Assembly: GCF_030122845.1 (NCBI RefSeq)
Contig: NZ_CP126084.1
Coordinates: forward strand, 2,790,001-2,854,000
Source of the DNA: Paenibacillus woosongensis
Lineage (GTDB): Bacteria > Bacillota > Bacilli > Paenibacillales > Paenibacillaceae
Direction of reading: 5' to 3'
DNA: 64,000 nucleotides
Shown: one piece after another, positions 10,435 through 14,413 of the stretch
Layout of the letters: each line of letters starts with the position of its first letter
Position numbering within the stretch: position 1 is the first letter of the stretch
Position numbers and translations under genes: made by a program
The notes under the pieces: model-generated
What the model saw: the letters and a program-made list of their open reading frames with translations, nothing else
What the model was told of the DNA's origin: nothing
The model's database searches: none

Positions 10435-11538
10435 TCATTCCGTAAAAGTAACATGAATCTGTACAATTTCAGACCGGCTGCCAAGACGAATCGGCGGGCC
10501 CCAGAAGCCGAAGCCGGAAGTTACGATAGAATGCAAGCTTTCCTTCTGCAAGTAACCCCAATCGTTCTCGAATAACATGCCGGTAATGAGATGCGCCGGC
10601 GCAATCTGTCCGCGATGTGTATGACCTGACAGCATCAGGTCGATCCCCTCCTGCTGGGCGATATCGAGGTCATAAGGCTGGTGATCCAGCAGGATCAGCG
10701 GTTTGGACGCATCCAGTCCTTGGACAAGCTCGCTAAGCGGAGCACGTTCCCGGTCAATCCTGTCCTTGCGTCCGATCAGCGTAAAGCTATCATCGATTGT
10801 AACGGCCTCATCGTAAAGAATACTCATGTTCCCCTGTTCGAGGACATCGATCAAGTGCTCCATTTGCCCGCTGTAGCGGTCATGATTGCCCAAGGTGGCA
10901 TAGACGCCGTAACGGGCGGAGATGCCGCTTAGAATTTTATCGATCCCCTTCTGCTCGTATGGACGAAGATCGTCATCCACGATATCCCCCGGGAATAAGA
11001 CGATGTCTGGCTTCAGAGCGTTGATCCGCTCCACTAGCCGGATCGCATGCTGCTTTCCGGATAACACCCCGAAATGCATATCTGCCGCCATGACGATATT
11101 CAATTCCGGAGCAGCCGGACTAGCCTTCAGAATGTCCACGCGGTATTCCCGGACAACGGGACTATAGGCGTTAAAACTGCCGTAACCGATAGTAGCCAGC
11201 AGTATAATCAGCACAAGGGCTCCTGCCCCCTTCTTCGCTGTGGAACGCGGCAGTTTCGTCAGCCGGAGCAGCCACAAGCTGACATGAACGACAGGCAGTA
11301 CGAGCAGCAGTACGCAAAATACGGCCATCCAGTATGCGCCGAGAATCTGGAACAGCACGAGCCCCTCTCCGATCCTTCCTAGCAGAAAAGAAACGGCCAG
11401 CAGCACAACAACTCCTATGTAGACGTACTTGAACCAGGTGGGGGTGCCTTCCTTCAGCCAACCCCAGCAGCTTCGGCCGATATAAAAGACTAACAGGCCA
11501 TAAACAAGCAATGCAATGATGCCAAATACAACAAACAT
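10435..11538 (-). CDS. Membrane-anchored metallophosphoesterase (YkuE/YaeI-like)
   Basis: A 367-residue protein with about four N-terminal membrane helices, then a calcineurin-like phosphoesterase domain. Metal-ligand motifs are in order: ADMHFG (D-x-H, about 152), PGDIVDDD (GD-x), TLGNHDR (GNHD), LDHQP and SGHTHRGQ. This set is typical of the YkuE/YaeI/UDP-diacylglucosamine-hydrolase-like group, which act on lipid- or nucleotide-linked phosphoesters. The substrate is unknown here. It lies 48 bases after the small membrane gene of the radical SAM cassette in the same direction and may be its last member; that is inference. Confidence 0.88.
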   Translation of the reverse strand: MFVVFGIIALLVYGLLVFYIGRSCWGWLKEGTPTWFKYVYIGVVVLLAVSFLLGRIGEGLVLFQILGAYWMAVFCVLLLVLPVVHVSLWLLRLTKLPRSTAKKGAGALVLIILLATIGYGSFNAYSPVVREYRVDILKASPAAPELNIVMAADMHFGVLSGKQHAIRLVERINALKPDIVLFPGDIVDDDLRPYEQKGIDKILSGISARYGVYATLGNHDRYSGQMEHLIDVLEQGNMSILYDEAVTIDDSFTLIGRKDRIDRERAPLSELVQGLDASKPLILLDHQPYDLDIAQQEGIDLMLSGHTHRGQIAPAHLITGMLFENDWGYLQKESLHSIVTSGFGFWGPPIRLGSRSEIVQIHVTFTE

Positions 11539-11586: not shown

Positions 11587-11988
11587 TTAAAAATTCGCCA
11601 TGACGACGCCAAAGCAAGCCGCATTCAGCAGAAATGTAACAGCTCCGCCAATCAACAATCCCTGTCCGATGCCAACCCGTTTTTTCGCAAAAGCCACCAC
11701 CGCAGCAGGGATTAAATATACGATCTGGGCTATGCCAATAAAGAAATAGGATAGGGGTATAAAAATGAGCAAAAGATGAAGCAGCGCCAGAATTCCGATC
11801 CCTTTGAATACCTCGGTAGTATGGTTACGTTTCGGCGGTTCATGCAGCGGTTCCCTGGGTAGCTCCAGCAGCGTCTCATGAGACGGCTCCTGCATCTGTT
11901 CCTGTCTCGGGTCTTGCTCCCCCGCCGTCATCTTTTCTTGAGGTTGGACTAACTCAGGCTTCTCCCGCTCGTTTGGGCCATCGCTCAT
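11587..11988 (-). CDS. Small membrane protein of unknown function, linked to the radical SAM gene
   Basis: The 133-residue protein has two parts. Residues 1-60 are hydrophilic, rich in Pro, Glu and Gln and probably disordered. Residues 62-133 form two or three hydrophobic helices (GILALLHLLLIFIPLSYFF, then IVYLIPAAVVAFAKK, then LLIGGAVTFLLNAACFG). I do not recognise the family. Its ATG overlaps the TGA of the radical SAM gene (ATGA at 11985-11988), implying coupled translation. It could be a membrane partner or dock for the radical SAM enzyme, but no catalytic residue is visible. Confidence 0.8.
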   Translation of the reverse strand: MSDGPNEREKPELVQPQEKMTAGEQDPRQEQMQEPSHETLLELPREPLHEPPKRNHTTEVFKGIGILALLHLLLIFIPLSYFFIGIAQIVYLIPAAVVAFAKKRVGIGQGLLIGGAVTFLLNAACFGVVMANF

Positions 11989-13400
11989 CCTCTTCTTCCC
12001 TCCATTTCAGCTTTTATCTCCTTTAGGCGCTCTTCCAGGTCACCCCGGTAAAAAATGTTGTACGTATCAAAAGGAATAATTCTTCCGTCCGGATGAACGA
12101 TATGCACGCAGGACTTCTTGACGGAGCGCACGTCGAAATGATACGGATCGAGGAATTGCATAATGATGACGCGGAACACATTGTCATAGCTTATCGACTC
12201 GGGAACCTGCACAAACGGCAGGCAGCAGAGCAAGCTTTTCAATGACATGGCTGACGATTCCGGCGAATGGTTGGTGGAGAACAGCTCGAATATATGCTCC
12301 CTCAAACCTTGATCCTGCTCGAACACGATCGTATTGCGGCCGCCCTCCAGCAAAATCTGCGGATCAACCATACGAGTGAGAGGTATGACCCCGTCATTTA
12401 GTTTCAAGGCATAACCCATCGCCAGGCTGTCCGGATGGCAGGGCACTGGAATCATGTCTTCGGCCTCGAACACACCGGACTGATCGATAATCGACTGCCT
12501 GACCTCGCTTAGCGTCAGCCGATCCTTGGCGGGATCGAAATCCTCCGTCCGGCCTGCCGCCTGGATCGGCTGGAACGTAACACCGCGCACCGCCCGCTGC
12601 TTAAGGCCGTATTGGATAATATCGCCAATTTCGTGATCGTTTAGCCCTTTTTTCAACGTGACTACAAGGGTCGTGGAAATATTGAATTCATTCAAGTGCG
12701 CGATCGCCTTCTCGCGGATTTGCCGCAGATCGGCGCCACGCAGCTCCTGCAGCACCTCTCGTTCAAAGCTGTCGAATTGCAAGTACAGCTCGAAGCCCGG
12801 CAAATAGTCCGCCAATCGCTTCACGAACTCCCGATCCTGCGCGATGCGGATGCCGTTCGTATTCACCATCAAATGCTTAATCGGCTTGCGCTTGGCCATA
12901 TCGAGAATTTCGAAAAACTGCGGATGGATCGTCGGCTCACCCCCGCTGATCTGTACGATGTCCGGCTCGCCTTCATTGCGCACAACGGCGTCCAGCATTC
13001 GCTCAACTTCCTCCAGGGAGCGCCACAGCTTCTTGTCCGGAGAGGAATCGGCATAGCAGATCGGGCATTTCAAATTGCATTGATCGATGATTTCCACGAT
13101 GGACAGGCAGCTGTGCTGCTCGTGATCGGGGCATAATCCGCAATCGTATGGACAGCCATAACGAATGGGCGTATTCCAGTGCTGCGGCATCTCCGAAGGC
13201 TTGATGAACTCGCGGCAGCGTTTATAATACTCGACGTCGGTTGAGATGAGCACTTTTTCCCGCCCGTGCTCGAAGCAGTACTTCGACAGGTAGACGCAAT
13301 CGTTTTCAATAATGACCTTCGCTTCCACCTTCTTCAGGCATTTCGAGCAGATGCTGTTCGTGAGCTCGTAGAATAAATACGGTCGATTTTTCGTCGTCAT
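11985..13400 (-). CDS. Radical SAM enzyme of the MJ0619/Tes-like subfamily
   Basis: The 471-residue protein has the radical SAM cluster motif C108-x3-C112-x2-C115 (CNLKCPIC), followed by SGGEP (153-157). Before it is a characteristic Cys-rich head: SICSKC (18-21), C35, C42, then GCPYDCGLCPDHEQHSC (82-98). This head with CGLC-x-x-H is the signature of the subfamily containing archaeal MJ0619 (pterin methylation) and tetraether lipid synthase Tes. The C-terminal half has further cysteines (LLCCLP) that could bind extra Fe-S clusters. Both neighbours overlap it by four bases, and the upstream partner is an Lgt paralogue, so a lipid-directed radical reaction is plausible but unproven. Confidence 0.9.
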   Translation of the reverse strand: MTTKNRPYLFYELTNSICSKCLKKVEAKVIIENDCVYLSKYCFEHGREKVLISTDVEYYKRCREFIKPSEMPQHWNTPIRYGCPYDCGLCPDHEQHSCLSIVEIIDQCNLKCPICYADSSPDKKLWRSLEEVERMLDAVVRNEGEPDIVQISGGEPTIHPQFFEILDMAKRKPIKHLMVNTNGIRIAQDREFVKRLADYLPGFELYLQFDSFEREVLQELRGADLRQIREKAIAHLNEFNISTTLVVTLKKGLNDHEIGDIIQYGLKQRAVRGVTFQPIQAAGRTEDFDPAKDRLTLSEVRQSIIDQSGVFEAEDMIPVPCHPDSLAMGYALKLNDGVIPLTRMVDPQILLEGGRNTIVFEQDQGLREHIFELFSTNHSPESSAMSLKSLLCCLPFVQVPESISYDNVFRVIIMQFLDPYHFDVRSVKKSCVHIVHPDGRIIPFDTYNIFYRGDLEERLKEIKAEMEGRRG

Positions 13401-14176
13401 GAGGCATGGCTCCCTTTCAGAATATTCGCATTACGGCTAACCGCGAACATGCGATACGCAAAATACATCATACCGAGCACACAGGCGAGCTGGATATTAT
13501 TCAGTCCGAAATAAGGATGCGGTGTCGGCTTAATAAAGTCAATGGCGAAGCGGAACGTTAAATACCCGAACATGAACCATATGTAGATCAGACCATTGGG
13601 CAGCTCTTGCCTGCGCGCAGCGCTTGTCTTCTTCGCCCCAAACAGCGCAAAGGCCAGAATAAGCAGAAATCCGATTTCATACAATTGTGTCGGATGCCTC
13701 AATACTCCGTCCCCGTAGTCGAAACCCGTAATCCAGGTCGTTGGCGTGCCATGCGTATGATCATCCAGCCCGGTCAAGAAACAGCCGATCCGCCCGATCG
13801 CCATCGCGATGATCAGGGGAAATGCAAACTCGTCCCCGGTCGAACGCGTAATGCCTACCAGTTTCTTGGTCAGCTCGACACCAATCAATCCACCCAGCAG
13901 TCCGCCGACGATCGTCTTGCCTCCGAACAGCTCTCTCCAGTGTTCCGAAATGGACAGCAGCCATGCCGGATTCTCCAGCCAAAAGAGCAGCTTGGAGCCC
14001 AGGGAAGCGCCGAGCGCCGCGCCGACGATCAGCCAGAACATGTTGACCGTTGAGATGTCGCTTTTTTTGCGCCGCCAAACGTAGATCCGGAAGCCGATGA
14101 AATAGGCGAGCGATTCAAACAAGAAATGAGGGTGAATCCGCAATCCGCCGATATGTATGTAGACGGGAAACTCCAA
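13397..14176 (-). CDS. Divergent paralogue of prolipoprotein diacylglyceryl transferase (Lgt fold)
   Basis: A 259-residue polytopic membrane protein with the Lgt layout, including GRIG (128-131) and HPTQLYE (161-167). It departs from Lgt where activity resides. The usual H-G-G-L motif (His103 in E. coli) reads IVGGLL, and the usual G-R-x-G-N-F-x-N-G-E reads GRIGCFLTGLDD, losing the Asn-Gly-Glu. It probably binds phosphatidylglycerol-like lipid but may not act on lipoproteins. TTG at 14176 was chosen because AGGAGGT lies six bases upstream; an in-frame ATG at 14212 lacks such a site. Its stop overlaps the radical SAM start. Confidence 0.85.
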   Translation of the reverse strand: MEFPVYIHIGGLRIHPHFLFESLAYFIGFRIYVWRRKKSDISTVNMFWLIVGAALGASLGSKLLFWLENPAWLLSISEHWRELFGGKTIVGGLLGGLIGVELTKKLVGITRSTGDEFAFPLIIAMAIGRIGCFLTGLDDHTHGTPTTWITGFDYGDGVLRHPTQLYEIGFLLILAFALFGAKKTSAARRQELPNGLIYIWFMFGYLTFRFAIDFIKPTPHPYFGLNNIQLACVLGMMYFAYRMFAVSRNANILKGSHAS

Positions 14177-14288
14177 TAGTCCACCTCCTGCTCCTCGAAA
14201 GATATGAACCAATCTAGTGAATGGATATTTTTAGGAGCTGCTTCTATTATACACATCTTACCAAACCGGGAGAAAAATAAAAAAGAAA

Positions 14289-14307
14289 AACCGCTGAATT
14301 AGCGGTT
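14289..14307 (-). terminator. Terminator of the rha-lut operon
   Basis: AACCGCT (14289-14295) pairs with AGCGGTT (14301-14307). Read on the minus strand it runs into TTTTTCTTTTTTATTTTTC. It lies about 105 bases after lutC. Confidence 0.85.
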
Positions 14308-14413
14308 CTATGACAGTCGTTTTCTAGTTATTCTCTATTAAAATTTTCAAATCTCGTATTCTGCTAATTCTCCTCGGCTTCGCTGCGATATTCCATATTT
14401 CTCTGCGCGGTGC

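Follow-up and report, generated by a model that had tools for sequence, protein, structure and literature searches.

Archaeal tetraether synthase (Tes, also GDGT-MAS; MJ0619) is a radical SAM enzyme that couples archaeal membrane lipids through their tails. It has four metal sites, among them a rubredoxin motif of the form C9X2C12X20C33X2H36. Phosphatidic acid was observed in its active site, and the sulfur of its C-terminal cluster, at which Met439 is labile, holds the lipid radical (PMC9433317). The same study rejects the view of MJ0619 as a pterin-methylation enzyme, which the first-pass annotation of the locus described here had still invoked. Bacterial Tes homologues have been named as candidate makers of branched tetraethers—lipids used as climate proxies—and stand untested (Zeng et al., PMC8941075; Halamka et al., PMC10087280); a search of the openly licensed literature returned no bacterial Tes relative with a demonstrated function.

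Three further systems provide points of comparison. TrsS (NF045646) is a family of radical SAM (seleno)proteins. Mss, the bacterial membrane-spanning lipid synthase, has a reported Tes architecture (PMC13274423); by description, it resembles the scheme considered below in the reaction proposed for it, the joining of tails, and in using substrates with phosphatidylglycerol (PG) headgroups. For the prolipoprotein diacylglyceryl transferase Lgt of Escherichia coli, six residues are reported to be absolutely required (Y26, H103, R143, N146, G154, and R239), although some Lgt have Y, W, or F at H103 and N146C is seen in distant Lgt (PMC13251419). Papers on an association between Lgt and tetraether enzymes were likewise not found in the openly licensed literature.

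Here we describe a three-gene cassette in which a Tes-like radical SAM enzyme is partnered with an Lgt-fold protein and a small membrane protein. It looks like an undescribed lipid-modifying system. Judged from alignments, what is new is the altered C-terminal cysteine set of the enzyme clade and the lone conserved cysteine of the small protein. The clade thus offers a built-in clue to its function: a PG-handling partner together with a candidate acceptor cysteine.

Layout and distribution of the cassette

The window analyzed is a 64,000-nucleotide stretch of the Paenibacillus woosongensis chromosome (NZ_CP126084.1, positions 2,790,001 to 2,854,000). Inspection of its open reading frames confirms three minus-strand genes, each joined to the next by an ATGA overlap (13397-13400 and 11985-11988), as the first-pass annotation had described. 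The first gene (13397-14176) encodes an Lgt-fold paralogue of 259 aa and starts at a TTG (14176) preceded by a good ribosome-binding site, AGGAGGT. The second (11985-13400) encodes the 471-aa radical SAM enzyme of the Tes/TrsS superfamily, and the third (11587-11988) a 133-aa small membrane protein. In the gap between a lutC-like gene and the cassette lies a minus-strand stem-loop resembling an intrinsic terminator (14287-14309; a consensus match only), which suggests that the cassette may form a transcription unit apart from the upstream lactate-utilization genes. The radical SAM protein of locus L032, from P. woosongensis, is 99% identical to this one.

A membrane-anchored metallophosphoesterase of the YaeI/LpxG-like type (10435-11538) does follow the cassette, as first noted, but it adjoins the three genes only in the nearest species and was dropped as a candidate fourth member.

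The linkage of the first two genes was counted over 95 distinct clade loci from Bacilli, Acidobacteriota, and Bacteroidota. At 90 of them the paralogue lies on the same strand as the radical SAM gene, 89 times upstream and once as a fusion; of the upstream paralogues, 85 are within 400 bases and 32 abut without a gap. The fusion, an in-frame 728-aa product from Neobacillus pocheonensis (L071:5224-7410), is seen in one draft genome only. Among 150 Paenibacillaceae genomes drawn evenly, the radical SAM gene occurs in 24 and the paralogue in exactly those 24; the genomes sampled are related, so we attach no probability to this co-occurrence. Elsewhere the cassette is patchy, with strong matches in 14 of the 247 genomes from Acidobacteriota and in 22 of the 296 from Bacteroidota.

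The Lgt and radical SAM trees share a branching order: the clade itself, then the loci L143, L144, L150, and L107, then L149. (A few spurious L081 and L082 reading frames carried into the Lgt tree were disregarded; a TGA in L149 that had been flagged as possible selenocysteine appears to be the terminal stop.) The pairing of a radical SAM enzyme with an Lgt fold is conserved and ancient, and the three-gene set is far from chance. A neighborhood survey for a wider operon detected no other gene family recurring near the cassette between genera; the trio alone is shared. The conserved linkage therefore upholds the gene association first proposed. Its tie to spore formers did not survive: The cassette is also present in Acidobacteriota and Bacteroidota, and a link to sporulation was rejected on that account.

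A radical SAM clade with a changed C-terminal cysteine set

In the middle protein, Pfam recognizes a radical SAM domain and, at the N terminus, the zinc ribbon typical of MJ0619 relatives. Its best NCBIfam score is to TrsS (327.6 bits, cut-off 490), and it reaches 288.8 bits with the Tes model (NF045702, cut-off 450); under these curated cut-offs it would be classed as neither. In the Protein Data Bank, the sole full-length relative is Methanocaldococcus jannaschii Tes (E 8.9e-68; 32% identity), and the profile alignment with it runs end to end. Superposing the AlphaFold model (pLDDT 78.7) on Tes (7tom) matches 408 residues at Z 41.5. MoaA, the second-best structural family, follows at Z 19.8, and SPASM enzymes among the structural matches listed fall below Z 20; similarity to the sactipeptide maturase SkfB is weak (E 2.6e-4) and confined to the core domain. 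By sequence and predicted fold, the enzyme is a Tes/MJ0619 relative, as the first reading of the sequence had it, and its closest characterized homologues are not RiPP or cofactor maturases. A superfamily tree of 100 members places it in a clade of its own, comprising Bacilli, Acidobacteriota, and Bacteroidota (support 0.96), apart from Tes proper and from TrsS; we regard this clade as new within the Tes/TrsS superfamily. PADLOC returned merely a generic viperin-like radical SAM match, and an antiphage system was rejected.

Three of the four Tes metal sites are invariant in the clade and keep the Tes spacing. These are the rubredoxin-type site C18-x2-C21-x20-C42-x2-H45 (13266-13349, minus strand), whose spacing is identical to that of Tes (PMC9433317); the [Fe4S4]N motif C83xxxC87xxC90xxH93 (13122-13154, minus strand; CPYDCGLCPDH, residues 83-93); and the radical SAM motif C108xxxC112xxC115 (13056-13079, minus strand). 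The CxxxCxxC at residues 108-115 and the cysteine-rich head with CGLC-x-x-H are thus as the first-pass annotation had read them.

The fourth site is different. We take Cys338, Cys455, and Cys470 as the [Fe4S4]C ligands of Tes because they are the only other cysteines in the C-terminal part that are invariant across Tes and TrsS. In an alignment of 41 clade members, these putative ligand positions are occupied by S/A/C325, S/T430, and D/E445: Cys persists at position 325 in 15 of the 41 and never occurs at 430 or 445. Four other cysteines (321, 392, 393, and 431), at positions that differ from the Tes ligands, are invariant or nearly so, and the counterpart of Tes Met439 is kept in nearly all members. 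The model has pLDDT under 50 at residues 375-400, exactly where C392 and C393 sit. With its cysteine ligands replaced, storage of a lipid radical in the manner of Tes may be lost or changed, and these altered ligands are the strongest reason against naming the enzyme a tetraether synthase.

Other features divide between the two families. The P(I/L)TRx(I/V)D segment of the C-terminal part is common to the clade and Tes and absent from TrsS, whereas an extra cysteine at position 98 is shared with TrsS. TrsS in turn keeps the Tes-type C-terminal cysteine ligands, and the sequences flanking the TrsS genes examined showed no Lgt.

An Lgt-fold paralogue and a small protein with one invariant cysteine

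The Lgt-fold identity given to the first gene holds: Its product matches PF01790 at 91.5 bits, above the Pfam cut-off, and its model (pLDDT 92.8) aligns with the E. coli Lgt–PG complex (5azb) at Z 15.3. It misses the NCBIfam Lgt cut-offs by far, and two further Lgt matches in the same genome both score better. All 38 paralogues aligned retain the equivalents of E. coli R143, R239, Y235, G142, G145, and G154, so that the PG-phosphate arginines R143 and R239 (here R129 and R209) and the signature-motif glycines are shared with Lgt. In the same 38, Y26, H103, and N146 have become H, V/M/A, and C (here H17, V90, and C132), and the periplasmic head region, the part of Lgt that contacts the protein substrate, is shortened, with about 20 residues ahead of HPTQLYE compared with about 45 in E. 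coli; the paralogue also differs from Lgt in having dedicated neighbor genes. With the arginines kept and the head shortened, the paralogue should still bind PG, and ordinary prolipoproteins are unlikely substrates. The loss of Y26, H103, and N146 may mean that PG is bound without transfer.

The third gene product is, as first described, a small membrane protein with a disordered head, which is acidic, and about three predicted transmembrane helices. It is highly divergent, and the initial Met, L121, C125, and G127 are the only residues invariant in 18 aligned members. Cys125 (codon at 11614-11616, minus strand) stands in LLNAAC-FG, at the last helix's outer end. A cysteine in the C-terminal region is present in 71 of the 71 sequences counted (the L025 reading frame being left out as spurious), nearly always 1 to 14 residues from the end; in almost all of them, a loop of positive charge and a run of hydrophobic residues precede it. 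The positional counterparts in Bacteroidota, missed by the profile, have two or three helices, the last with a single cysteine.

The full pattern of cysteine, hydrophobic stretch, and positive loop occurs in 60 of 64 small proteins and in 3 of 68 multi-helix reading frames from the flanks; restricted to small multi-helix frames, the control is thin (3 of 17). Because many of the 64 sequences are close relatives, the independent support lies in recurrence across three phyla and in a sister cassette. By positive-inside reasoning, the invariant cysteine is predicted to sit at the outer face of the membrane, on the same side as the Lgt active site. The last helix looks as if built like a lipoprotein signal peptide, with the cysteine placed like a lipid-attachment site. 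The likeness is partial: Cysteine, helix, and positive loop are present, but the –1 residue is often bulky, and there is no strict lipobox.

In one Paenibacillaceae genus (g8), which accounts for 11 of the 24 positive genomes, no small protein was found, either next to the two genes or at any other place in these genomes. The g8 loci (L014-L022, L024, and L025) and two similar ones (L064 and L065) carry the paralogue and the radical SAM gene, with no small cysteine protein detected.

The sister cassette belongs to a clade from Clostridia, Bacteroidota, and Acidobacteriota (L183, L184, L188, L186, and L179), in which a Tes-like radical SAM gene accompanies a GCCYG-type Lgt paralogue. A similar small cysteine protein occurs in three of the five (FGAC, FGSC, and LGTC), and some add an ICMT/PEMT-type membrane methyltransferase and DUF4395.

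Candidate chemistries

The reading that we favor, at a probability of about 0.38 and thus tentatively, is that diacylglycerol taken from PG ends up on the small protein or close to it and that a radical reaction alters its tails. This reading draws on finding, in one cassette, a relative of the lipid enzyme Tes, a fold that handles PG, and a small protein whose cysteine resembles a lipid-attachment site. The cassette would then be a dedicated membrane-lipid modification system. The Lgt paralogue would bind outer-leaflet PG and either move its diacylglyceryl group onto the small-protein cysteine or dock the small protein. The radical SAM enzyme, on the cytoplasmic side, would generate a 5'-deoxyadenosyl radical that abstracts hydrogen from the tail end of the same or a neighboring lipid, the tail probably being a branched fatty acid attacked at its iso-methyl end; archaeal and iso-branched tails share an isopropyl terminus (PMC8941075). 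The tail radical might be held on the C-terminal cluster, with ligands rearranged relative to Tes, before the tail is joined or otherwise functionalized. Such a pathway would yield a lipid with ester linkages whose tails are crosslinked or modified and which may be anchored on the small protein.

The substrate, the transfer to cysteine, and the tail coupling are steps that we infer from sequence, fold, linkage, and residue conservation, and four observations count against them: the replaced Tes cluster ligands, the residues lost from Lgt, the bulky –1 residue, and the genus without a detected small protein. No lipid data for cassette-bearing species were found in the openly licensed literature. 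Of the lipid-modifying system that the first-pass annotation envisaged, the conserved pairing of a Tes-like enzyme with an Lgt fold stands, and a lipid substrate is the simplest assumption; spore formers and the metallophosphoesterase no longer belong to it. An elaboration that we hold to be a long shot is a new type of protein lipidation: The Lgt-fold transferase would attach diacylglycerol to the C-terminal cysteine, and the Tes-like enzyme would weld its tails to a lipid in the opposite leaflet, so that a covalently spanning lipid staples the protein to the membrane.

The main rival, which we consider possible though doubtful, is tail coupling between free phospholipids to give membrane-spanning lipids with ester linkages, the reaction put forward for Mss from other Bacillota (PMC13274423). 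The radical SAM enzyme would join the iso-branched tails of two phospholipids as Tes and Mss do, yielding tetraesters of the iso-diabolic-acid type, with the paralogue presenting or orienting PG and the small protein in a structural role. The Tes fold and three Tes metal sites fit this scheme, as do the PG-headed iso-diabolic lipids of other Bacillota (PMC13274423) and the presence of the cassette in Acidobacteriota, some of which make such lipids (PMC10087280). Yet archaeal Tes works in vitro without a partner (PMC9433317), and the C-terminal cluster ligands are altered here. Acidobacteriota have separate Tes equivalogs that score above the cut-off, and the openly licensed literature contained no report that we could find connecting Paenibacillus with iso-diabolic acid. 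The P. woosongensis genome was also searched for DUF2229, a marker that we take to be the domain of the ester-to-ether enzyme PlsA/Ger; it is absent, which makes ether forms unlikely, and tetraethers are not expected there.

One invariant cysteine in an otherwise divergent co-encoded protein, together with the weak likeness to SkfB, could instead indicate that the small protein is itself the substrate of the radical SAM enzyme. A RiPP-like modification, for example a C–S bond from the conserved cysteine to a lipid tail or glycerol, would then take place with the paralogue as a membrane platform. We judge this unlikely: The predicted topology sets the cysteine on the outer face and the enzyme in the cytoplasm, SPASM relatives lie far behind the Tes match, and genus g8 has no detected small protein.

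Radical SAM enzymes are versatile, and the sister cassette also encodes membrane proteins of the ICMT/PEMT type and with DUF4395; the trio might accordingly make or use a small hydrophobic cofactor or a quinone-like molecule, with the Lgt fold as a generic binder. The lack of recurring biosynthetic genes nearby, only the trio being common between genera, and the fact that the Tes and Lgt folds both handle glycerolipids make this quite improbable. A last alternative takes the first gene for a normal lgt that neighbors an unrelated radical SAM gene, as its above-cut-off PF01790 match might imply. It is highly improbable: The genome has two better Lgt matches, Y26, H103, and N146 are replaced in all 38 paralogues, the head region is short, and the linkage extends across three phyla.

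If the favored reading, lipid modification on or near the small protein, is right, the cassette would broaden the known roles of radical SAM enzymes and of Lgt folds. Its hosts include the culturable genera Paenibacillus, Brevibacillus, Neobacillus, and Mucilaginibacter, so that what one bacterial clade of Tes-like enzymes does can be tested directly. A Tes-like gene that turns up in a survey does not necessarily signal tetraether synthesis.

Other Tes-like genes came to light alongside the clade. An Acidobacteriota clade without Lgt (L177, L178, L190, and L191) lies near genes for a class I methyltransferase, a pyridine-nucleotide-disulfide oxidoreductase, and an MFS transporter. Many of the Acidobacteriota genomes sampled encode one or two proteins of about 630 to 860 residues with a Tes-like core (L091 and L092), which are candidates for making iso-diabolic acid in that phylum. 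A deeper Tes-like radical SAM gene from Bacteroidota (L185:6589-9288) adjoins another Lgt-like gene.
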